33,417 nt of DNA from a virus, in the IMG/VR virus record IMGVR_UViG_3300036760_000199, positions 1 to 33,417 of that record. The stretch is one strand, 5' to 3'. How positions within the stretch are numbered: position 1 is the stretch's first letter; each line of letters opens with the position of its first letter. The notes beneath the pieces were generated by a model that worked only from the letters and a program-made list of their open reading frames with translations, was not told where the DNA came from and did not search any database. Both the position numbers and the translations under genes were made by a program. Below are positions 1-32,580 of the stretch, one piece after another.

Positions 1-238
1 GGCCGGCAAGTTGGCCGGCCTACGGAAGGAGTGGTACCCGAATGGGAACAAGTGCTCCAAGTCTACCTTTAAGGCCGGCAAGGCGGACGGTCTCTGCCAG
101 ATATGGTGGGAGAATGGCAAACCGTACTACGAGGGGAACTATAAGGACGGCAAGCCGGATGGCCTCTGCCAGAGATGGGACGAGACCGGCAAGCTGAGCT
201 ACAGTCTACGCTACAAAGATGGGGTACTGCAAGAGTAG
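1..238 (+). CDS. MORN_2 (YwqK-like) repeat protein, 3' fragment
   Basis: The reading frame is open from base 2 and runs off the left edge, so only the C-terminus is present. It contains about three 24-residue repeats of the form DGLCQxWxxNGKLxxxxxYKxGK, the MORN_2 or YwqK-type pattern, and ends YKDGVLQE. Bases 1-121 are identical to 2359-2479 inside the gene at 1937-2668, so this is a recent paralogue. It then diverges, and becomes similar again around DGLCQRWDETGKLSY. Such repeats form short beta-hairpin solenoids. Many database entries label them 'antitoxin YwqK', but no toxin partner is visible and I do not infer an antitoxin role. A TTG at 11 could serve as a start, but the frame continues upstream of it. 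Confidence 0.75.
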   Translation, partial: AGKLAGLRKEWYPNGNKCSKSTFKAGKADGLCQIWWENGKPYYEGNYKDGKPDGLCQRWDETGKLSYSLRYKDGVLQE

Positions 239-240
239 TG

Positions 241-289
241 CCCTTATCCTTGCCCTCATTGAGGGCTTATATTGCATAGGTAAAAGGAG
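241..289 (+). repeat. Intergenic cassette repeat 1 with hairpin
   Basis: This is the first of four copies of a conserved intergenic unit. It contains TTATCCTTGCCCTCAT, then GAGGGCTTATATT and an AAAAGGAG ribosome-binding site. GCCCTC at 252-257 pairs perfectly with GAGGGC at 261-266 around a 3-nt loop. It lies between the stop of the partial MORN gene and the 114-aa gene. There is no long U-tract after the stem, so it is not a classic intrinsic terminator. It could be an attenuator, a processing or stability hairpin, or a recombination landmark. Confidence 0.8.
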
Positions 290-295
290 AAGAGT

Positions 296-640
296 ATGGA
301 AACAAAGACCAACGGGAATACGCTTACAATTACGATTAGCATTAGTAGTGAGATAGCAACCGATGAGATGGAGGATATTATAGACTATCTCATCGGGATA
401 AAAGAAACAACGGCGGAGATGCAGGACATACGGAATAAGGTACGTGGCATAGTGCAATGCAACCAAATAGATATGTTGTTGGAGGCCGAAAGTATCCCCT
501 TATGCGGGAACTACGGAGATACACTGGCAAAATATATCTATGATGTTGTCGGAATAAGCGAGGATTGGCGTTCTTATAGGGATTGGCGGAAAACCGCATA
601 CCGTGAGGTATGCGAGGAGTTGGAGGCAATGGGGAAGTAG
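296..640 (+). CDS. Hypothetical protein, 114 aa, in the cassette array
   Basis: I do not recognise the family. The start is set by AGGAG at 285-289, six bases before the ATG. The first 20 residues are Thr/Ile-rich and probably form a beta strand. The rest is acidic and likely helical, with an aromatic stretch (DWRSYRDWRKTAY) near the C-terminus and two isolated cysteines. There is no signal peptide or membrane segment. It has no MORN repeats, yet the same hairpin cassette flanks it on both sides, so it behaves as a separate insert in the array. Small soluble accessory proteins in such positions are often host-interaction factors, but nothing in the sequence shows that here. Confidence 0.7.
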   Translation: METKTNGNTLTITISISSEIATDEMEDIIDYLIGIKETTAEMQDIRNKVRGIVQCNQIDMLLEAESIPLCGNYGDTLAKYIYDVVGISEDWRSYRDWRKTAYREVCEELEAMGK

Positions 641-642
641 TG

Positions 643-689
643 CCCTTATCCTTGCCCTCATCGAGGGCTTATATTATATATAAAAGGAG
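643..689 (+). repeat. Intergenic cassette repeat 2 with hairpin
   Basis: This is the second copy of the intergenic unit. The perfect hairpin spans 654-668 (GCCCTC, loop ATC, GAGGGC). An AT-rich run, TTATATTATATATAAAAGGAG, follows and ends in the ribosome-binding site for the next gene. TTGCCC and a TATATA 17 bases later resemble promoter boxes. A transcript starting there would leave almost no leader, so I do not call a promoter. Confidence 0.8.
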
Positions 690-695
690 ATGTGC

Positions 696-1367
696 ATGTG
701 CGAGTTTGTATCGTGGATTGAAGATAAGGACGGCAAGCTGTGGTGGCTGACGGACAAGGTAGTGGAGGCCTACGTGGCTCAACATAGCGGCGAAAATGTA
801 GAAATTGAGTGGGCAGATTACGCCGGCCACTCGGCAATCAGAAAGGTACTGGGTGTCGATGGGAAACACGGCGAAGGTTTCCCGTGCCCGGCAGAGATTG
901 CTAAAAGCATAAGAGCCGGGGAATTAAGGAAAATCGCAAGACTCGGGGCGTTGGTATATGTAGAGGTGTCGGCGGCCGGGGAAATACACGGCCTCCGTCT
1001 GGAATGGTGGGGTGACGGCAAATTGTACTCCGAGTCTCACTACAAGGCCGGAAAGCGGGACGGCATCTGCCAGGTCTGGTACACAAACGGGAGATTACAC
1101 CACGAGGACACCTACAAGTCCGGGGAATGGGACGGTCTCTGCCAGACATGGCATGAGAACGGCAATTTGTGCTACAAGCATACATACAAGGACGGAAAGC
1201 GGGACGGCCTCTGCCAGACATGGCATCATAACGGCAAACCGCAGTACGATGAAACATATAAGTCTGGCAAGTTAGACGACCTCTGGCAGAGCTGGAACTA
1301 TAGCGGGAAGCTACTCCACAAGGCAAACTACAAGGATGGGGTACTAATAGCAAGGAGATGTGTATGA
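696..1367 (+). CDS. Head domain plus five MORN_2 repeats, 223 aa
   Basis: The ATG at 696 lies six bases after AGGAG (685-689). The in-frame ATG at 690 abuts the ribosome-binding site, and the paralogue at 1937 begins with the same MCEFVSW, so 696 is the likely start. Residues 1 to about 85 form a head domain with the pieces WIEDKDGKLWWLTD, GHSAIRKVLG and GFPCPAEIAKSIRAGELRKI. From memory, this type of domain occurs at the start of various phage proteins of unknown function. Residues from about 92 to the end hold five 24-residue MORN_2 repeats. The stop overlaps the next gene's ATG (ATGA), implying coupled translation. Function unknown; the solenoid suggests a binding surface. Confidence 0.8.
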   Translation: MCEFVSWIEDKDGKLWWLTDKVVEAYVAQHSGENVEIEWADYAGHSAIRKVLGVDGKHGEGFPCPAEIAKSIRAGELRKIARLGALVYVEVSAAGEIHGLRLEWWGDGKLYSESHYKAGKRDGICQVWYTNGRLHHEDTYKSGEWDGLCQTWHENGNLCYKHTYKDGKRDGLCQTWHHNGKPQYDETYKSGKLDDLWQSWNYSGKLLHKANYKDGVLIARRCV

Positions 1368-1882
1368 AAACAGAACGGCGGTGGGAGTGGAACGATAACA
1401 CGAGGGTATACTCCGAATCTACCTACAGGGACGGCAGGCGGGACGGCCTCTGCCGGGAGTGGTACGAGACCGGGGACTTGAAATACAAGGCTGACTATAA
1501 GTCCGGGGAAATAGTCGGCCTCTGCCAGAGATGGTGGAGTAACGGCAAACTGCGCCTAGAGGAAACATATAAGGATGGGGAGTTAGACGGCCTCCGTCAG
1601 GCATGGCATGAGACCGGCAACCCGGACTACGAGGAAACATATAAGTCTGGCAAGTTAGACGGCCGCTGCAGGGAATGGTGGGAGAATGGCAAACTGCGAT
1701 GCGAGGAAACCTACAAGGCCGGAGAGTTAGACGGCCTCCGTCAGGCATGGTACGAGACCGGCAACCCGCACTCGGAGACTACCTTTAAGGCCGGCGAATA
1801 TGACGGCCTCTGTCAGATATGGTACGAGAATGGTAAACTGCGATGCAGGTATACCTACAAGGATGGGCAAGTGCAAGCGTAG
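1364..1882 (+). CDS. Headless MORN_2 repeat protein, 172 aa, seven repeats
   Basis: The start at 1364 is set by AAGGAG at 1352-1357 and by the ATGA overlap with the upstream stop; the in-frame ATG at 1358 abuts the ribosome-binding site. The protein is almost entirely seven 24-residue repeats (72-bp DNA period) with W, NG or TG, and YKxG at fixed positions. It lacks the MCEFVSW head of its neighbours on both sides. No hairpin cassette separates it from the gene before it. It may therefore be a split-off solenoid half that works with the 223-aa protein as a two-chain pair. It ends YKDGQVQA. Function unknown. Confidence 0.8.
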   Translation: MKTERRWEWNDNTRVYSESTYRDGRRDGLCREWYETGDLKYKADYKSGEIVGLCQRWWSNGKLRLEETYKDGELDGLRQAWHETGNPDYEETYKSGKLDGRCREWWENGKLRCEETYKAGELDGLRQAWYETGNPHSETTFKAGEYDGLCQIWYENGKLRCRYTYKDGQVQA

Positions 1883-1930
1883 TGGATTTATCCTTGCCCT
1901 CATGGAGGGCTTATATTATATATAAAAGGA
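1883..1930 (+). repeat. Intergenic cassette repeat 3 with hairpin
   Basis: This is the third copy of the intergenic unit. The hairpin spans 1896-1910 (GCCCTC, loop ATG, GAGGGC), followed by TTATATTATATATAAAAGGAG. The stem bases are conserved in every copy, while the middle or last loop base varies (ATT, ATC, ATG, ATC). That pattern suggests selection on the stem, or recent copying. Confidence 0.8.
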
Positions 1931-1936
1931 GTGGGT

Positions 1937-2668
1937 ATGTGTGAGTTTGTATCGTGGATTGAAGATAAGGAAGGGAATCTGTGGTGGTTGACAGATAGGA
2001 TGGTGGAGGCCTTCGTGGCTCAACATGAGGGCGAAACTGCAGAAATTGAGTGGATAGATTGGGTCGGCCACGCGGCAATTACAAAGGTACTGGGCATCGA
2101 TGGGGAACACGGCGAAGGGTTTCCGTGCCCGGCAGAAGTTGCTAAAAGCATAAGAGCCGGGGAATTAAGGAAAATCGCAAGACTCGGGATATTGCGGGAG
2201 GTATCAGTGTCGGCGGCCGGGGAAATACACGGCCTCTGCAAGACATGGTGGCCGAATGGGAACTTGCACTACAAGTCTCACTACAAGGCCGGGGAACTAG
2301 ACGGCCACTGTCTGGAGTGGTGGCCGAATGGGAACTTGTGCTCCGAGTCTACCTACAAGGCCGGCAAGTTGGCCGGCCTACGGAAGGAGTGGTACCCGAA
2401 TGGGAACAAGTGCTCCAAGTCTACCTTTAAGGCCGGCAAGGCGGACGGTCTCTGCCAGATATGGTGGGAGAATGGCAAATTGCACTACAAGACTCACCAC
2501 AAGGCCGGCAAGGCGGACGGTCTCTGGCAGGCATGGTGGGAGAATGGCAAATTGCGAACAGAGGACACCTACAAAGCCGGGGAATGGGACGGCCTCTGCC
2601 AGAGATGGGACGAGACCGGCAAGCTGAGCTACAAGCATACATACAAGGCCGGGATGGTGATAGCATAG
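1937..2668 (+). CDS. Head domain plus six MORN_2 repeats, 243 aa
   Basis: The ATG at 1937 lies six bases after AGGAG; the upstream in-frame GTG at 1931 overlaps the ribosome-binding site. The head domain (residues 1 to about 85) closely matches the gene at 696, with MCEFVSWIEDK, GEHGEGFPCPAE and KSIRAGELRKIARLG. Six 24-residue MORN_2 repeats follow. Bases 2359-2479 are identical to the left edge of the window. Head conservation combined with differing repeat numbers points to unequal recombination between repeat units. The protein is predicted soluble with no signal peptide. Its role is unknown; host takeover or defence-evasion binding are only possibilities. Confidence 0.8.
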   Translation: MCEFVSWIEDKEGNLWWLTDRMVEAFVAQHEGETAEIEWIDWVGHAAITKVLGIDGEHGEGFPCPAEVAKSIRAGELRKIARLGILREVSVSAAGEIHGLCKTWWPNGNLHYKSHYKAGELDGHCLEWWPNGNLCSESTYKAGKLAGLRKEWYPNGNKCSKSTFKAGKADGLCQIWWENGKLHYKTHHKAGKADGLWQAWWENGKLRTEDTYKAGEWDGLCQRWDETGKLSYKHTYKAGMVIA

Positions 2669-2670
2669 AG

Positions 2671-2727
2671 TGGTCTTATCCTTGCCCTCATCGAGGGCTT
2701 GTTTTAAAATATGCTACAAATGGAGGG
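2671..2727 (+). repeat. Intergenic cassette repeat 4 with hairpin, divergent 3' half
   Basis: This is the last copy of the unit. The hairpin is at 2684-2698 (GCCCTC, loop ATC, GAGGGC). The AT-rich second half differs from the other copies (GTTTTAAAATATGC), and the ribosome-binding site GGAGGG lies further downstream at 2722-2727. It marks the end of the MORN array. Confidence 0.75.
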
Positions 2728-2731
2728 ATGT

Positions 2732-2980
2732 ATGATTATCAAACATAACGCCAAGAAGCTATCCAGAGACCAAATTAGGGCTATTGCAGGCCTTGCACAA
2801 CGCAAGGCAAGGCAAAGTTACAGGTCGGCTTTGCAGTGGCTCTATGGCCTATCACAGGCCGCCACGATTACTGTCAAGCAAGCGTCGGCGGTTGCAAGAT
2901 GTGAGAGGCGCAAATACAAAGCTGCGTTATTAGGGATAGCTCGTTGGGCTTATCGAGCAAAGGAAAAAGAAGAATGCTAA
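2732..2980 (+). CDS. Small basic helical protein, 82 aa, unknown
   Basis: The start at 2732 is chosen because GGAGGG (2722-2727) sits just upstream; an in-frame ATG at 2711 lies before that site. The protein is rich in Lys, Arg and Ala, and most of its length should be helical (RAIAGLAQRKARQSYRSALQW, KYKAALLGIARWAYRAKEK). The charge suggests nucleic-acid or membrane-surface contact, but no named fold is evident. It begins a run of tightly packed genes, and its stop overlaps the next gene's start region. Confidence 0.6.
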   Translation: MIIKHNAKKLSRDQIRAIAGLAQRKARQSYRSALQWLYGLSQAATITVKQASAVARCERRKYKAALLGIARWAYRAKEKEEC

Positions 2981-3126
2981 CGACAACAGAAGTTAGAAAA
3001 GAAGGAGACATCTATGTAGTTACTCACAGCGATGGAACGGTCGACCACCAAACCCGTGCGGAGTTTATTCGGTACTTAGAGCAGTTATATAATCTGGAAC
3101 AATCAACAACGAAGGAGGAAGCATGA
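2974..3126 (+). CDS. Small hypothetical protein, 50 aa
   Basis: The ATG at 2974 overlaps the end of the previous gene, with AAAGGA and AAAGAAG upstream as ribosome-binding sequence. An in-frame TTG at 2944 is rejected as too deep inside that gene. The product begins MLTTTEVRKEGDIYVVTHSDG, a short beta-hairpin-like part, followed by a helix (AEFIRYLEQLYNLEQ). Its TGA overlaps the next ATG (ATGA). Function unknown. The overlaps at both ends support it being real. Confidence 0.6.
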   Translation: MLTTTEVRKEGDIYVVTHSDGTVDHQTRAEFIRYLEQLYNLEQSTTKEEA

Positions 3127-3569
3127 TTTTTAAAAGTAATTATCGAGGAGTAGAAATTGAGGTACAAACAGATTCTTCATTGTTTAAGAAGGGAGACAAT
3201 TATTTTGACTCCCTCGATAAAGCACTTCGTTTCATTGACTGGGAAGTTACCCTTAAGGAAACCGGAACGGACAAACTGATTGCCTATTATGGTGCATTTG
3301 ACAAAAAGTATGAAAGGGTAGAAGTGTCTCCACCGTGCTACTCAAACACAGATAACTTATCAAAGTACGCCTGTATTAATAGTGGAGAAGAGAAGGGGAA
3401 GGTCGTACAGATGTTTTATCTGTATGCAGATACCGAAAAAAACAGAGAAATGTTTAAAGAGATAGAAGACTTGCAAGAAAAAGGCAAAGAAATGCGGAAG
3501 AAGATGAAGGAACTGACAAATAAATTGCAGCCATTTTCAATAACAAAAGAAGGAGAAGAAAAATGCTGA
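3123..3569 (+). CDS. Hypothetical protein with C-terminal coiled coil, 148 aa
   Basis: The start has a strong AAGGAGG site (3112-3118) and an ATGA overlap with the upstream stop. The first 105 residues look like a mixed alpha/beta domain (NYRGVEIEVQTD, ALRFIDWEVTLK, KVVQMFYLYAD). Residues from about 108 to 138 form a strongly charged coiled coil with alternating Glu and Lys (FKEIEDLQEKGKEMRKKMKE). I do not recognise the family. Its position before the recombination genes suggests an early phage protein. No membrane segment or cysteine cluster is present. Confidence 0.65.
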   Translation: MIFKSNYRGVEIEVQTDSSLFKKGDNYFDSLDKALRFIDWEVTLKETGTDKLIAYYGAFDKKYERVEVSPPCYSNTDNLSKYACINSGEEKGKVVQMFYLYADTEKNREMFKEIEDLQEKGKEMRKKMKELTNKLQPFSITKEGEEKC

Positions 3570-3664
3570 AAACAAAGAATAAGCACACCGGGTTAGCAAC
3601 TCTTTTACTCCAGATTGCCTTGATAATAGCCATATACTTTTTGGCGGAGGCAGTATATAAATGA
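3563..3664 (+). CDS. 33-aa single-pass membrane peptide
   Basis: This small gene starts at an ATG seven bases after GGAG and overlaps both neighbours, the previous stop by 7 nt and the next ATG by 4 nt. It reads MLKTKNKHTG, then a hydrophobic stretch of about 19 residues (LATLLLQIALIIAIYFLAEA), then VYK. A basic N-terminus and one membrane helix would place the N-terminus inside the cell. The overlaps, ribosome-binding site and clear membrane segment support it. Its role is unknown; it could be a small membrane modulator or superinfection factor. Confidence 0.6.
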   Translation: MLKTKNKHTGLATLLLQIALIIAIYFLAEAVYK

Positions 3665-4044
3665 AAGAGAGAATAGAAGAACTTAAAAGTCGGATAAAAG
3701 CTGACGTGCAAACTCTTCGCTCATTGGGGATTAAGCTGACGGTGTCGATAAAAGCTCCAACAGCCGACTTCACACTTGCATCGTTCGAGGACAATTTCCT
3801 GACTGAAGTGAATGACCTATGGTCAGGGGTAGATATACCCCTTGAATGGAAGTCTTGCATCGCATGGTGCAAGGCTAACGGGAAAAAACATAGTAAGCAA
3901 AGGTTTGTGAATTGGCTGAACAAGGCCGCCAAACAGCTTGTATCTGTGGGCACAGGTGTGCCAAAGTATGAGGCAGTGCGGGCTTTCCGTCAGGCAGCTT
4001 CGCCAAAGAGTGCGGCTGAAATATTAAGAGAAAGAGGAGAATAA
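3661..4044 (+). CDS. Hypothetical protein, possibly replication-associated, 127 aa
   Basis: The ATG overlaps the stop of the 33-aa gene (ATGA), with GGAGG about 13 bases upstream. The N-terminal 25 residues form a charged helix (ERIEELKSRIKADVQTL). The central part contains WKSCIAWCKANGKKHSKQRFVNWLN. That W...W...RF.NWL pattern resembles the C-terminal segment of some phage replication or helicase-loader-associated proteins. The resemblance is weak and I do not assign that role. It precedes the recombination cassette directly, so an early DNA-metabolism function is plausible. Confidence 0.6.
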   Translation: MKERIEELKSRIKADVQTLRSLGIKLTVSIKAPTADFTLASFEDNFLTEVNDLWSGVDIPLEWKSCIAWCKANGKKHSKQRFVNWLNKAAKQLVSVGTGVPKYEAVRAFRQAASPKSAAEILRERGE

Positions 4045-5864: not shown

Positions 5865-6286
5865 TTGGAACAAGCAATGTAAGCATCATAGGAAACTTGG
5901 TGGGAGACACCGAGTTTGGAGAAGAGGAGAAAACATGGTTCACGGTAGCCGTAGATGATTTCCGTAATGGGTACAAGACCAACGAGGGGTGGCAACAGAA
6001 CGCTTGCTTTGTATTTGTCTCCATCCCGACATGGATGGGTAGAAAATACAAAGAGGGCAGATACCCCTTAAAAGGGGATGCCGTTACAATTCACGGATAT
6101 TTGAGTTCCTCTACAGGCAAGGACGGGAAAGCCCATTTACATCTAAATGCCACAAATGTCGTAACCCTCCTGCCAGCTATAAAGAAAGAAACCAGAGCGG
6201 AATCTACCCCAAAGGCGCAAGCTAATCCCCGCCCGACGGGGGCAAGTGTACCACCAAAGATGAAAAACGATTTAGAGCCGTTCTAA
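5861..6286 (+). CDS. ssb: Single-stranded DNA-binding protein, 141 aa
   Basis: This is a probable OB-fold single-stranded DNA-binding protein. The N-terminal 105 residues show the SSB layout: MIGTSNVSIIGNLVGD, then ACFVFVSIPTW in place of the usual strand 4, then GDAVTIHGYLSS. A Pro/Ala/Lys-rich linker follows. It ends NDLEPF, matching the acidic tip with terminal Pro-Phe that bacterial SSBs use to recruit partners. The start at 5861 has AAGGAGG (5848-5854) and an ATGA overlap. It is the last gene of the plus-strand run and completes the recombination/replication cassette. Confidence 0.85.
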   Translation: MIGTSNVSIIGNLVGDTEFGEEEKTWFTVAVDDFRNGYKTNEGWQQNACFVFVSIPTWMGRKYKEGRYPLKGDAVTIHGYLSSSTGKDGKAHLHLNATNVVTLLPAIKKETRAESTPKAQANPRPTGASVPPKMKNDLEPF

Positions 6287-16594: not shown

Positions 16595-18426
16595 TATCCC
16601 ATCCTCTGAAGTTCTTTATACGTTAAACTCATGTCTTGCAGATAGAACCTTTTACTCTTAGATTCTATTGCAAGACTCCAATACCTGCTTTGCATCCCTT
16701 TCCCTATTTCTGTTTTGATATTATGGAATAATCCTGCATTATTTATCAAGGCTGCTCCAGTGTAGGAATATTCGATACCATCATCACCTTGTACTTTTAT
16801 CGTTATATCGTTGTCCAACATGCAATTGGTAAAAAGAGTTAACAGTCTTTTCGCTTGAGTGCTTCCGAAATCGTTAACCCCAGTCTTGATACGACTTGAA
16901 ATATCAACTCCATTATCACTATCGCCCCCAAGACGATATATCCCATCGCTCTTGCCACCATAATATTTGCCTCCCGCTAATCCGTAACTGTTAAAGTCGA
17001 ACTCCTTGTATGTCGAATGGGCTTTGTTCTTGGTATTTATCGTGCCCGTAAAATAAGTAACTTTAGAATCAAGAACGTACCCGTACCCGCTTGCTGTGAA
17101 ATCTTCGAAAATGATACTCCCTACAGCCTTTGTGTTCTGCCAGCCTGAACCCGACACCTTGAAATCACCGATAGCTATGGCAGATTGTCCGAGTATCCCG
17201 TTATTTCCATAACCAGAAACAGCGAACGAATCCATGACAACGTCTCCATTGCCTAATGCTCCTGATAGTGCATCGCCCGACACCTTGAAATCACCGATAG
17301 TTATCGCTACTCCCAAGTATGGTTGGGCATTCCCTGCACCCGACACCTTGAAATCACCTATGGTTATCGTACCAGTACCGCTTGCGCCTACAAGTCCTAC
17401 ACCCGACACCTTGAAATCACCTATGGTTATCGCGGCAGTACCTGCTGTATAGCCCTCACAGGTGAAAGCACCTATGGTTATCGCACTATTGCCTAGTATG
17501 CCAGCATTGACTGAGGCTGACAACTTAAAGTCGCCGATGGTCATCGCACCGTCTATCAATACAGCATTGCTGCCTATGCCCTCACAAGTGAAATCATCTA
17601 TGGTTATCGCACCGTCGGCATTTGATACTGTCCCCGAACAAGTGAAATTACCTATGGTTATTGCACCGTCGTTGATTACTCCTGCAGGGCCTGTCCCCGA
17701 ACAAGTGAAATTACCTATGGTTATTGCACCGTCGGCAGTTCCACCCGAACAAGTAAGGCTGCCGATGGTTATCGCACCGGCTGCCAGTACCGTGTATGTG
17801 CCCTCGATGTAATCGGTCTGCGTGGTGAAAGCCGCTACCGAGCTTGAGTAATTCCATGTCAATATCCCCACATCGACGACCGTCCCCATATCCGAACGAG
17901 TAAATGTACTGTCTGTTCCCCAATTGCCCGGAGCGCTTGCGGCCGAATACAGTGTGAAGACGCTGCCAACCCTGACTATGCGAAACCACTTGTAATCTCC
18001 TACGGAATTGTTTGATTCGGCAGGCATGCTGTTTGTGATAGACCAGTTGTGCCTGCTCTTCGAACCCGTATCGTATTGTACTCCTGCTACAAGCACGTTT
18101 GTCGTGTCGCCGCTCTTACGAACTGCAAGGCCTATCCCCTGATAGCTTGCAGCCAATGGAGTCGAGGAGACATAAATATCTACATCGAAGTCGCCGGTAA
18201 GTTGCTGGAAAACAAACGCACCCTGATTGATGTCGATGCTGGAACATCTGCGCAACTGCGTACCCGTAGGGACGGTGATTGTGAGTTCACCCGCATTGGT
18301 CTGGTTTGAAGTAAGGGTGGCGGCCCCGGCAGAGCCGGAGAGATTCCACCCGTACTCTTTGCATCCATCACCACCAGTAAGGAAGTTCTGTGCTGTCCCT
18401 GCGGCGAATGTATCGAGAGTCGCCAA
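16594..18426 (-). CDS. Fibre-like adhesin: lectin-like head plus 12 beta repeats, 610 aa
   Basis: The start codon is TTG at 18426, with AGGG three bases upstream and the upstream TAG just before it; no in-frame ATG lies near. Residues about 15-210 resemble a concanavalin-like or DUF1349-type sandwich (DFDVDIYVSS, GIGLAVRKSGD, YKWFRIVRVG). Residues about 216-449 hold 12 repeats of 17-22 residues with the core AITIGDFKVSG, which look like beta-solenoid or fibre strands. Residues 455-610 form a distinct C-terminal domain. The likely role is host adsorption. The repeats make the gene prone to in-frame length variation. It is followed by a one-base overlap with the coiled-coil gene. Confidence 0.65.
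   Translation of the reverse strand: MATLDTFAAGTAQNFLTGGDGCKEYGWNLSGSAGAATLTSNQTNAGELTITVPTGTQLRRCSSIDINQGAFVFQQLTGDFDVDIYVSSTPLAASYQGIGLAVRKSGDTTNVLVAGVQYDTGSKSRHNWSITNSMPAESNNSVGDYKWFRIVRVGSVFTLYSAASAPGNWGTDSTFTRSDMGTVVDVGILTWNYSSSVAAFTTQTDYIEGTYTVLAAGAITIGSLTCSGGTADGAITIGNFTCSGTGPAGVINDGAITIGNFTCSGTVSNADGAITIDDFTCEGIGSNAVLIDGAMTIGDFKLSASVNAGILGNSAITIGAFTCEGYTAGTAAITIGDFKVSGVGLVGASGTGTITIGDFKVSGAGNAQPYLGVAITIGDFKVSGDALSGALGNGDVVMDSFAVSGYGNNGILGQSAIAIGDFKVSGSGWQNTKAVGSIIFEDFTASGYGYVLDSKVTYFTGTINTKNKAHSTYKEFDFNSYGLAGGKYYGGKSDGIYRLGGDSDNGVDISSRIKTGVNDFGSTQAKRLLTLFTNCMLDNDITIKVQGDDGIEYSYTGAALINNAGLFHNIKTEIGKGMQSRYWSLAIESKSKRFYLQDMSLTYKELQRMG
17080..17780 (-). repeat. Twelve degenerate in-frame repeats in the fibre gene
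   Basis: Units of roughly 51-66 bp recur, many sharing the plus-strand string CACCTTGAAATCACC followed by TATGGTTATCG. They encode the AITIGDFKVSG core. Spacer lengths vary, always in multiples of three. DNA identity is highest in the middle units (17150-17430), which suggests recent internal duplication. Confidence 0.85.
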
Positions 18427-24321: not shown

Positions 24322-26617
24322 TTAAAATCCTCCAGGAATAATTGTTTTGTGCATCTTTCAGACACACCTGTACACTGTCTGCCGTGCCGTCTCCGCCCTT
24401 TACAACCCAGATAGTACCTCGAACTGCGCTGTCGCAAGCGGGCTGAGTCTTGCCGTTGTCGTCGATATGCAGGCCGCCTTTTATCTTTAGCCCAGTTGTT
24501 TCGGATTCCATCACGGCGTGGTACTTCTTGAGTATTTCGTTGTGGTAGATGCCGAGCTTGTCGTAATTCAAACTTTCCGGGATTCCATTCTCATACCAAA
24601 TTAAGTTCTCAAGCCCTCCTATCGAATCGACGTCTTCGGCAATATATCCAAAATTTGGCCGTCCATCGCTCTTGTAATTAAATGTCACGGGGGCAAGGGA
24701 GTATACTGCATCTGTATTTAATGTTGCAGGCAGAATGTTCTCTTTATAACGCCGAGACGACCCATTTAATGATGTTAACTTCCCACCGGAATAACCAATG
24801 GCTACGCCACCAGTACCCGTAGGTGAGGGGATAGTGGTATCTCCATTAGACCAGAAGTCCCAGTAATTCACTGCACCTGCCGTAGTTACCGTCGCTATCT
24901 GCACGAGCCCCGGCACATGCCCGTTCGCTACGTTGCCATCTTGTGCTCCCATTAACCAACCTGCCCCCATCCATCCCCCGCCGCCTACACCATAGAAGTT
25001 TATCCTTCCTAAAACATCACTATTATTCGTATCTGTTGTATTCGTTCCAATAGCTGAATCTCTAGCTCGACGAAAGACAATATGAGCAGCATGGTCGGAA
25101 GTACCAGCTGAGTAGTGGTCGAGATAGAGAGTGCCGTTGGCACTTCCACTTGAAGCAAATCTTGCCTTCGTCGGGAAGTCCGAGTTGAATTCATCCTTTA
25201 CCGCCACCCCTGAGAGCAAAGCCCCTGCGCCAATCACAATCCCGTAATTATTCGTTGCCCCACTGGCCGAGAAGTATCCGCCAACGTTTGTGGATGACGA
25301 ACCAGCACCAGTCTTTGCGGCATAGACGGCATAACCCGTACCGCTGGCATTTGCCCCCGTATGAGTTACGTTGAGCGCCTTGCTTGCGTCTGACGTAGAT
25401 GACGAGGTTATCGTCCCAAGAGTTGTAATGTTTGTCGTCCCTGCCCAAGTGGATAGCGCAGTGTTCTCGACATTGCTTAGGTCGTACCAACTCGGAGTAC
25501 CGGAAGTCATCGAAAGAAACTTACGAGTAGCCGTCCCATTCCCTGTCAATGCACTCCATGTATTAGTGCTTGCAGAATAGAGTAAATCTCCTACAGCAGA
25601 GGTGGACAATCCCGTCCCGCCTTTAGCCACCACGACAGTGCTGCCGTTCCACGTACCAGCTGCTACATTCCCAACTGAAGTTATCAATGCAGAACCTGCC
25701 CAAGTGGATAGCGCAGTGTTCTCGACATTGCTAAGTCCAACATCCGATTTAGTTACTGTACTCCATGACGGAGCGGCAGAATGCCCTGCCCCATCACCTG
25801 TCTGGCTTAGAAAGTTCTTTGTTACGGTCTGGTTACCAGCAAGTATCAGCATTGCATTTGCTGCCGAACCATACCAAGTATCTCCAAGACCAACCGACGA
25901 GGCTAATCCTGTCCCGCCTTTGGCTGTGGTGATTGCCGTTGCATTCCAGACTCCTGTACCAATCGTCCCAACAGACGAAATATAGCCTGTACCTGCCCAT
26001 GTCGACAATGCAGTGTTCTCTACACTGCTAAGCCCAACATCTGATTTAGTTACGCTGTGCGGATTGCCGCTGGTAAGCAAAGAATGTGAGTAGGCGGTAT
26101 CCCAATGACCTGTAGATGTAGTAGAAGGGATGGAATAACCGTTTGTGAGCGAGAACGCTCCACCTGCTGCGTCATACGACAAACCCGTCGCTGTAGAGCT
26201 CATAGAGCCTCTTACACGTGATTGAGTATAATAGAGATTCGTTCCCTCAGTCAGGTTTGTCGTGGTCGCCAACGTGCCATTAATGACGCCAGATGACGAC
26301 ATCAGAGGCACTCCACTTGAACTTATCCCGTGTATCACTAACTGGGGTACAGTTAACCCATATGAAGTCCCTGTATCCCATGTACTCGTCAGTGCGCCGA
26401 GAGAGAATGTCCTTGTAAAAGTAGAGGGGAACTCGCTGATTATTACCCCGTTACCACCCGAATCGATGTATGTCCCTTCGGTGTAGATGTTCGGCTGATT
26501 CAATACATTGCCGAACTGCTGAATACCAGTAGCGCCACCTACGCAAAGGAGAATCCCAAGCAGTATTATTGTTGACCAAATGCTGTATCTCTTCCATAAC
26601 TTCTTCATTCTCATCAT
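24311..26617 (-). CDS. S74-chaperone fibre protein with N-terminal membrane anchor, 768 aa
   Basis: The first 35 residues hold a basic start and a membrane segment (YSIWSTIILLGILLCVGGA), unusual for a tail fibre. The shaft has tail-fibre repeats around KSDVGLSSVENTALSTWAGT and AKGGTGL, three to four times. An intramolecular chaperone of the peptidase S74 type follows, with SSRRYKENI (Ser620 and Lys625, the self-cleavage dyad spacing) and GYIAEDV. After it come about 60 more residues with two cysteines (ACDSAVRGTIWVVKGG, VQVCLKDAQNNYSWR), so S74 is not C-terminal. The protein is likely a trimeric surface or fibre protein. The N-terminal anchor suggests cell-surface or membrane association during assembly. 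Confidence 0.75.
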   Translation of the reverse strand: MMRMKKLWKRYSIWSTIILLGILLCVGGATGIQQFGNVLNQPNIYTEGTYIDSGGNGVIISEFPSTFTRTFSLGALTSTWDTGTSYGLTVPQLVIHGISSSGVPLMSSSGVINGTLATTTNLTEGTNLYYTQSRVRGSMSSTATGLSYDAAGGAFSLTNGYSIPSTTSTGHWDTAYSHSLLTSGNPHSVTKSDVGLSSVENTALSTWAGTGYISSVGTIGTGVWNATAITTAKGGTGLASSVGLGDTWYGSAANAMLILAGNQTVTKNFLSQTGDGAGHSAAPSWSTVTKSDVGLSNVENTALSTWAGSALITSVGNVAAGTWNGSTVVVAKGGTGLSTSAVGDLLYSASTNTWSALTGNGTATRKFLSMTSGTPSWYDLSNVENTALSTWAGTTNITTLGTITSSSTSDASKALNVTHTGANASGTGYAVYAAKTGAGSSSTNVGGYFSASGATNNYGIVIGAGALLSGVAVKDEFNSDFPTKARFASSGSANGTLYLDHYSAGTSDHAAHIVFRRARDSAIGTNTTDTNNSDVLGRINFYGVGGGGWMGAGWLMGAQDGNVANGHVPGLVQIATVTTAGAVNYWDFWSNGDTTIPSPTGTGGVAIGYSGGKLTSLNGSSRRYKENILPATLNTDAVYSLAPVTFNYKSDGRPNFGYIAEDVDSIGGLENLIWYENGIPESLNYDKLGIYHNEILKKYHAVMESETTGLKIKGGLHIDDNGKTQPACDSAVRGTIWVVKGGDGTADSVQVCLKDAQNNYSWRILNVL

Positions 26618-31066: not shown

Positions 31067-31708
31067 TTACCACCTTTCGGTGTTAGATTCATGCCGATAA
31101 TGCGAAATCTTTGCCTTGTTATACTCCCCCCACCAAATGGCAAGGCAGATGCTTAGGACTATATCGTCATGTTCGCTATCCTTCCCCGACTCATAACTGG
31201 TATGGCCGCTATCGGATTTTATCTTCATATGGAAACCAAGAAATTCCTCTTTTATCTTCTCGTTCAAAGGGATTCCCGGATGAAGCATAATACGCTTATT
31301 ATGGAAAGCCAACAACGCGGCATCGACTACGTGAGATTTGGGAACGTTCAAGTATCCCTGCCCAAGAGAAATGTTATTGCCGCCAGTTATATTGATTGGC
31401 TCTAAATCTCTTTTAATATAGTTGTCATTCCTTAGCGTATCCACAACAGGCATTCCTACACCTGTCGTGTCTATTATAATTTTGCAATTGCCATACCTTG
31501 TTCTAAGGACATGATACGCTTTTACTATGGCATCTTTTATGACAGGATAAGGCGTCTGCAGTTTCATCTGCACCACTTCTCCGACAGCATACATGACCTT
31601 ATCTGGGTAAGTCTGGCGTTCGATTCCACTGATTACCGTGTAATCTTTGACCTTGCCCAAGTCTACTCCGAGCAAACCATGACTACGATATGGATTTTGG
31701 GTTATCAT
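31067..31708 (-). CDS. terL: Large terminase, nuclease half (split TerL), 213 aa
   Basis: This is the C-terminal RNase H-like nuclease of the packaging terminase, encoded separately from the ATPase. Residues 10-16 give HGLLGVD with Asp16, residues 76-85 KIIIDTTGVG with Asp80, and residues 179-186 EHDDIVLS with Asp181 and Asp182. That is the three-acid layout of TerL nucleases that cut packaged DNA. The ATG overlaps the ATPase stop (ATGA), and only weak ribosome-binding sequence is present, so translation is probably coupled. A frameshift product is unlikely because a TGA lies just upstream in this frame. The two polypeptides would have to associate to act. Confidence 0.85.
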   Translation of the reverse strand: MITQNPYRSHGLLGVDLGKVKDYTVISGIERQTYPDKVMYAVGEVVQMKLQTPYPVIKDAIVKAYHVLRTRYGNCKIIIDTTGVGMPVVDTLRNDNYIKRDLEPINITGGNNISLGQGYLNVPKSHVVDAALLAFHNKRIMLHPGIPLNEKIKEEFLGFHMKIKSDSGHTSYESGKDSEHDDIVLSICLAIWWGEYNKAKISHYRHESNTERW

Positions 31709-32580
31709 TCAATCCCAAAATCGAAACGAGGACATTCCGAATTTACGGCGGCTGACCAAATTCTTTGTACTCGTTCCCCATAGCCAAGTGTGGTAAACGT
31801 AAACGCCTCACAATGAGGAGATTCACGCCCGGCATTGAAAGCTGCATCGATGTCCTCTTCTAAGAATAACTGCAGTTCTGTGTCTACAAATTCACACATA
31901 AACTCCGACCTAAAGGCCGCATCGCTCATGTGTCTCTTCTCGTAATCAACATCTTTAGGGTCTAGCAGGGGACATTCATAGGCCGTCATTGAAAACCGCT
32001 CCCATGCAGGGTCTTGAGATTTCCATATGTCATAGAAATGACCCCTCTTGCCAAAAGGGGTAGACATCATGATATGGCGGCCTTTTGTGTTTATCATTGT
32101 CGGCCGGAGAGATTGATAGTGCACGATGTCAGCCACCTGAGTGGCCTCATCTTCTATCACAATTGTCGCAGAAACTCCACGAACAGCACTCCCCGGTAAT
32201 GCTTTGATGAGACTGCCGTTTTTAAATTCAATAGATTGAGCTTTTGCATCCATATTGCGTTGCTCCGATGGAGGTAACAACGCAATGAATTCCTTTATCT
32301 TTTTTATTGCCAACTTCGCCTGTTCCACACTTTGTGAAATGATATAAACTTGTGGAGGGCGTAGTAGGTTGTCTGGGAACATACAGGTATGATATGCAAT
32401 CATTGAGGCAAGAGTGGTTTTTGTCCCTTGTCTTGTCATGTTCAATTGTATATTTCTTGCCCTTGACCTTAATATCTTCTCCTGAAATGGATAAATAACT
32501 GGAAATAACGCTTTAAAACGGGTTTGGGCAAAGTATGCAGGGTCTACTTTGCAACGAACCCAATCTGTGAGTTCATTCAT
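31705..32580 (-). CDS. terL: Large terminase, ATPase half (split TerL), 291 aa
   Basis: This is the N-terminal ATPase motor that drives DNA into the capsid. PFQEKIL (residues 31-37) is the adenine-binding Q motif. The Walker A region is TRQGTKTT (residues 49-56), where the usual Gly-Lys is Thr-Lys. FKNGSLIKALPGSAVRG precedes Walker B TIVIEDEA with Asp144 and Glu145. HIMMSTP (173-175) is the coupling motif. It ends soon after the ATPase fold, and the nuclease is a separate ORF, so TerL is split. The start is ATGA-coupled to the preceding gene. Confidence 0.85.
   Translation of the reverse strand: MNELTDWVRCKVDPAYFAQTRFKALFPVIYPFQEKILRSRARNIQLNMTRQGTKTTLASMIAYHTCMFPDNLLRPPQVYIISQSVEQAKLAIKKIKEFIALLPPSEQRNMDAKAQSIEFKNGSLIKALPGSAVRGVSATIVIEDEATQVADIVHYQSLRPTMINTKGRHIMMSTPFGKRGHFYDIWKSQDPAWERFSMTAYECPLLDPKDVDYEKRHMSDAAFRSEFMCEFVDTELQLFLEEDIDAAFNAGRESPHCEAFTFTTLGYGERVQRIWSAAVNSECPRFDFGIE

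Follow-up and report, generated by a model that had tools for sequence, protein, structure and literature searches.

The window analysed here, a single linear IMG/VR virus record of 33,417 bp from an uncultivated phage, begins in an array of small duplicated accessory genes that are separated by four conserved copies of one module, each running from the stop codon of one gene to the start codon of the next and each carrying a perfect hairpin. One further junction in the array lacks the module, and an independent second example of hairpin junctions of this kind is found in another phage type. We think it somewhat probable that the array arose by tandem duplication of early accessory genes and that their junction modules, combining a terminator-like hairpin with a Shine-Dalgarno (SD) site, were copied along with them and have been kept by selection.

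Results

A repeated module spans the junctions of the array

The features of the array are listed in Table 1 in their order along the plus strand, with likelier start codons (696, 1364, 1937 and 2732) that refine the first reading of the genes. Beyond the last gene of the table lie closely packed early genes. Among them are an exonuclease and a VRR-NUC nuclease; a recombinase and a single-strand DNA-binding protein are suggested by resemblance only. The G+C content of the array is 0.525, compared with 0.464 in the remainder of the window.

Table 1. Genes and junctions of the array at the start of the window.
Feature	Position	Strand	Description
Gene A, 3' part only	2..238	+	MORN_2; cut by contig start; PF07661 E 3e-16
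Junction module 1	236..298	+	Stop TAG, TTATCCTT, hairpin 252-266, AT-rich part, AAAAGGAG, start ATG 296
114-aa gene	296..640	+	Between direct module copies; no match in Pfam, PHROG or NCBIfam
Junction module 2	638..698	+	Hairpin 654-668
MORN1	696..1367	+	MCEFVSW N-terminal domain and MORN_2 repeats; PF07661 E 1e-19
Module-less junction MORN1/MORN2	1339..1367	+	CTAATAGCA directly joined to AGGAGATGTGTATGA; gap -4 nt
MORN2	1364..1882	+	Six MORN_2 repeats, without the N-terminal domain; PF07661 E 2e-32
Junction module 3	1880..1939	+	Hairpin 1896-1910
MORN3	1937..2668	+	MCEFVSW domain and six MORN_2 repeats; PF07661 E 2e-33; AlphaFold2 model
Junction module 4	2666..2734	+	Hairpin 2684-2698, then TTGTTTT; downstream part unlike other copies
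Gene after module 4	2732..2980	+	82-83 aa from ATG 2732, 89 aa from ATG 2711; no confident family

The initial annotation had described four intergenic copies of one unit with perfect stems and a slightly varying loop, and this description holds. A 25-bp core, TTATCCTTGCCCTCATNGAGGGCTT, lies at 244-268, 646-670, 1888-1912 and 2676-2700, on the plus strand only and always between a stop codon and the following start codon, and none of 100 shuffles contained as many copies. When both strands were searched for the palindromic GCCCTCATNGAGGGC with at most two mismatches, all eight matches fell at the four module sites; the mean in 100 shuffles was 0.17 and the maximum 2, so that none reached the observed number. 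The 6-bp stems, GCCCTC/GAGGGC, are perfect in all four copies and the 3-nt loops of copies 1 to 4 read AUU, AUC, AUG and AUC, a 24-nt core being identical throughout apart from one loop base. Because the stems do not vary among the four copies, they provide no covariation support for the hairpin.

The downstream sequence that had been noted in most copies, AAAAGGAG, is present in copies 1-3, whereas copy 4 instead has GTTTTAAAATATGCTACAAATGGAGGG. The block common to the copies starts at the stop codon itself (TAGTG or TAGAGTG), and the module therefore spans the whole distance from stop to start. Modules are always oriented with transcription, and they are the only gaps of more than 2 nt among the listed plus-strand genes (54-63 nt versus -22 to +2 nt), the gap before the last gene being as uncertain as its start codon. 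As had been claimed, the genes that follow the unit are unrelated (the 114-aa gene, two MORN genes and the ~82-aa gene), and the 114-aa gene sits between two direct copies.

The modules have changed little while the genes around them diverged. Across the 46 positions that run from TTATCC to AAGGAG, modules 2 and 3 are identical at 45 and differ only in the loop, while the N-terminal regions of MORN1 and MORN3 differ at 44 of 303 bases (14.5%; pS 0.21, pN 0.13). At 14.5% divergence per site, the probability of at most one difference in 46 is P ~0.007 by hand calculation, and the near-identity of the two modules is therefore likely to reflect constraint or recent conversion.

Properties of the hairpin

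The G+C-rich hairpin forms in every sequence context tried (pairing 0.83-1.0), with an energy of -9 to -10 kcal/mol for its 6-bp stem. All four units were called terminator-like, with five G-C pairs each, in a region that gave 13 such hits against 6.1 in shuffles, and a computed terminator score is positive for every copy (8.8-18.1). The tract that follows the stem reads UUAUAUU in copies 1-3 and UUGUUUU in copy 4, and only the latter is a good T tract; with a short hairpin and an interrupted tract (TTATATT), termination may be weak in copies 1-3. Promoter-like sites were not in excess in the region (6 versus 8.4 in shuffles), and a sigma-70-like match (9/12) was present only in copy 4, scored with a consensus that may not fit the host. 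Positions 1-4000 of the window gave no match to the 4227 models of Rfam at E values up to 1.

Duplication, a module-less junction and the contig start

At the fifth junction of the array, which has no module, the stop codon of MORN1 overlaps the start codon of MORN2 as ATGA (1364-1367). Set beside the ends of MORN3 (...GTGATAGCATAG) and of module 2 (AAAAGGAGATGTGCATG), the MORN1/MORN2 junction, CTAATAGCA/AGGAGATGTGTATGA, is most simply read as the deletion of one module between the two genes, after which MORN1 would now run on to TGA.

The N-terminal domains of the window copies are 79% identical, and the longest exact repeats lie in coding DNA (121, 50, 43 and 30 bp), while no exact run of at least 30 nt starts in a spacer. 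Since the spacer identities are the shorter, the coding repeats are, judged by their length, the better recombination substrates. Bases 1-121 of the contig recur without a difference at 2359-2479. A contig opening precisely at an internal repeat has the appearance of an assembly-graph break, and the array has thus probably been cut by one, with the contig beginning inside it; further cassettes may lie to the left of the contig start.

Elsewhere in the window, exact direct repeats of 33-44 bp occur within two late genes of 610 and 768 aa (17337-17735 and 25440-25732), with a 63-bp period in the first. The terminase large subunit, on the minus strand at 31067-32580, is encoded as two ORFs, one for the ATPase part and one for the nuclease part, that overlap by 4 nt; this is either a natural split or a frameshift error.

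MORN_2 proteins and an unnamed N-terminal domain

Four neighbouring reading frames match PF07661 (MORN_2) at E 3e-16 to 2e-33, with 58-111 bits against a curated cut-off of 29.6, and no family match was obtained for the 114-aa gene, which bears out the gene content first proposed for the array. In an AlphaFold2 model, MORN3 is predicted to form a MORN-type beta repeat; confidence is high over the last 140 residues and the N-terminal part is poor, and the model matches MORN1 of the PDB at E 4e-6. For the N-terminal domain that begins MCEFVSW, Pfam, PHROGs and NCBIfam gave no match, and a fold search with it likewise returned none.

A relative of this domain was found in a Parcubacteria MAG and, through it, 19 IMG/VR loci. 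The domain, which begins MCEF(V/I)SW, shares 31-38% identity with 15 other sequences and has 12 invariant columns; both window copies are recovered by a profile that itself includes them. Among 287 genomes of the MAG's phylum it occurs in that MAG only, and a search with one viral copy (L107) found none in 50,697 records of cultured phages and 72,556 plasmid records. In the MAG itself (L013:6001-6933) the domain is joined to longer, helical-looking repeats. In those viral members long enough to show it, tandem repeats come after the domain, usually 11 aa in length and variable in number, and most of these members have the C-terminal cap FWDLF..NR..AWR; the window members carry MORN_2 repeats instead. 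No MORN_2 was found in 20 other records with the domain, which leaves the window as the only one of the set to have it, in a search that was also blank in its control genomes.

Variation around these genes is seen at several loci. Two of them, L094 and L095, are 99.75% identical over 6.4 kb from position 6001, yet their MCEFVSW proteins are of 226 and 171 aa, a difference in repeat number. A third has a broken second copy of the domain start directly behind the intact gene (L111:6773). L105, L106 and L108 share stretches that are ~93-98% identical and differ in the small genes just upstream of the domain gene; the sites of gain or loss (L105:1920-3010, L106:2803-3141 and L108:4822-5305) have no hairpin modules. 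A comparable hairpin is absent from most other members of the gene family, and is therefore not a family trait.

A parallel array in a second phage type

Two further records, G010 and G011, carry between them five genes with the MCEFVSW domain (G010:C1:49650-53708 and G011:C1:19-2834; loci L114 and L116), one of them truncated where G010 ends. The same stop-hairpin module, TAGTGTGTAAGAGAGAGGGCAGCTTCGCTGCC...AAGGAGAATTAAAATG, with a hairpin of -27.7 kcal/mol, stands behind every copy, and the four complete modules all end in GAGAGAGAAAGGAGAATTAAAATG, which each time is the start of a different, unrelated gene (ORFs of 240, 166, 65 and 279 aa). The intact domain copies share the same SD leader upstream. 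Beyond the array no similarity between G010 and G011 is detectable. G011 carries a head module (terminase, protease and capsid) and G010 the tape measure, tail and replication genes, so that the two are best seen as stretches of one phage type that do not overlap, the break falling at the array. Horizontal transfer, which was considered because only the array is shared, was rejected as unproven, given that the gene content fits one phage type. G010 and G011 together are thus an independent second example of hairpin junctions with MCEFVSW genes.

Searches for relatives of the window

A search for the exact unit in IMG/VR found none. Relaxed matches were confined to L005 and L006, where they fall within the coding sequence of unrelated phages, and were put down to chance; a covariance model of the unit recovered the window's four copies, and its next match had an E value of 0.34. 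Single proteins (the N-terminal domain, the exonuclease, the capsid and the recombinase-like protein) led to no relatives of the window, and a portal alignment to 80 loci at 24-31%, none of them with early genes in common. The portal is closest to those of Rhizobium, Roseobacter and Pelagibacter phages (23-29%; phrog_332, phrog_267).

Discussion

According to the model that we favour, the start of the early operon would hold an array of tandemly duplicated, fast-diverging accessory genes from a phage family that combines an unnamed N-terminal domain with an interchangeable repeat part, here MORN_2. The repeated unit would be the stop-to-start junction between cassettes, in which a 6-bp G+C-rich hairpin placed soon after the stop codon precedes the SD site of the following gene. 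The hairpin is most likely a weak intrinsic terminator, or a 3'-end or processing hairpin, that would limit read-through. Modules would have been copied together with the genes and then held by selection, and homologous recombination could add or remove cassettes, using the coding repeats in most cases and the modules at times.

A different role for the module is suggested by an invariant UCCUU that lies upstream of the hairpin, in every copy 8-10 nt after the stop codon, and that could couple translation of adjacent genes by hiding the downstream SD sequence AAGGA until the terminating ribosome of the upstream gene opens it. With 20 nt of flanking sequence, UCCUU pairs with the SD at 0.84-1.0 in copies 1-3, whose SD sites are the least accessible (0.20-0.23) among window genes with a perfect AAGGAG, and in the minimum-energy fold of copy 4 its own SD is covered by pairing between UAUCCUU and AGGGAUG. 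However, the pairing drops to 0.00-0.23 when at least 60 nt of upstream coding sequence are included, and in copy 4 it reaches only 0.11-0.18 even in the short context; moreover, any UCCUU pairs with an SD, so that the fold alone proves little, and there is no covariation. With the pairing largely gone in the longer context, we rank termination or processing first and regard sequestration of the SD as an unlikely rival. That the 6+3+6 dyad acts on DNA, as an operator bound by a phage repressor controlling each early gene, we consider very improbable: the dyad is perfect and repeated ahead of four genes, but all copies have one orientation and conserved non-symmetric flanks, promoter-like sites are not enriched, and no repressor was identified.

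The initial annotation took the modules for recombination spacers that drive the exchange of small genes, in the manner of the PeSLs of T4-type phages. This accords with the two direct copies (44 of 53 positions identical) that flank the 114-aa gene, with the same module standing ahead of unrelated genes, with its loss from one junction, with the same layout in the second phage type and with the variation in small genes beside the domain gene between related phages. We nevertheless find it rather doubtful, because exact identity in the spacers is far shorter than in the coding repeats, small-gene turnover in the L105/L106/L108 group proceeds without such modules, and the collections searched yielded no relatives that differ in the presence of cassettes at this locus. 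At the other extreme, the modules might be passive copies, intergenic sequence duplicated with the genes and having no function of its own. Tandem duplication is clear and the units are confined to the array, but the 24 positions of the core do not vary, whereas its immediate flanks and the genes have diverged, and the core is intact in copy 4 despite an unrelated downstream part, which together make passive copying quite improbable. Duplication followed by selection on the module remains our preferred explanation.

A broader proposal, which we put forward tentatively and would not yet call probable, is that a widespread and undescribed early accessory family, built of the MCEFVSW domain and swappable hypervariable repeats, multiplies as self-contained cassettes of SD leader, ORF, stop codon and hairpin and so gives any next gene a new leader, the window holding the MORN_2 version. 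If cassettes do multiply and change the type and number of their repeats, they would offer phages a natural means of rapidly diversifying their early proteins, perhaps for interaction with the host or for counter-defence. The junction module would account for the way in which a single operon can take in unrelated genes and leave their neighbours undisturbed, and also for the breaking of short-read assemblies at such loci: the window, G010 and G011 all end inside their arrays.

Comparison with known systems

What stands of the original interpretation is that a punctuation module recurs through a phage accessory array and is placed before unrelated genes. Its suggestion of a previously undescribed system is not supported, as stem-loop cassettes that mediate shuffling, the intergenic promoter/stem-loop cassettes or PeSLs, have been described in T4-type phages (Arbiol et al., 2010; Comeau et al., 2014; both as cited in PMC4503421). 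In the account of PMC4503421, where a role in shuffling is proposed, PeSLs resemble the modules of the window in being near-identical stem-loop modules between small early accessory genes, with unrelated genes between copies. The repeated terminator-like stem-loop that marks PeSLs is present in the window by sequence. Set against that account, the window module has no recognised early promoter and takes in the stop codon and the SD site, and most of the genes that it separates are duplicates from a single family. PeSLs, as described there, belong to T4-type myoviruses, and the window, by its portal affinity (phrog_332, phrog_267), is not one of these; the phage is podovirus-like.

Phage morons are accessory genes that each bring a promoter and a terminator of their own. 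The small accessory gene followed by a terminator-like hairpin is common to both, but morons are single insertions, whereas the window has a tandem array in which no cassette promoter was recognised. Integron cassettes, too, form small-gene arrays punctuated by hairpins (attC); an integron-like array was ruled out by the absence of the GTTRRRY core, which occurs in none of the window units, and no integrase was found among the window proteins scanned.

At the level of the proteins, the C-terminal repeats match those of PF07661 confidently, in sequence and in predicted fold, but two of the four window proteins are fused to the unnamed MCEFVSW domain and are encoded by phage early genes. A Helicobacter equorum prophage (BK070118) likewise has three consecutive MORN_2 genes (L012:3404-6111), near a primase gene, but these overlap, and neither the MCEFVSW domain nor a module match was found there; one of the three is annotated as EngA GTPase despite its match to MORN_2.

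By analogy with PeSL-like or moron-like cassettes, then, the kind of arrangement seen in the window is already known, while the gene family that joins MCEFVSW to fast-changing repeats may be undescribed. The less expected result is this unnamed, repeat-swapping gene family together with the independent recurrence of hairpin junctions alongside it.
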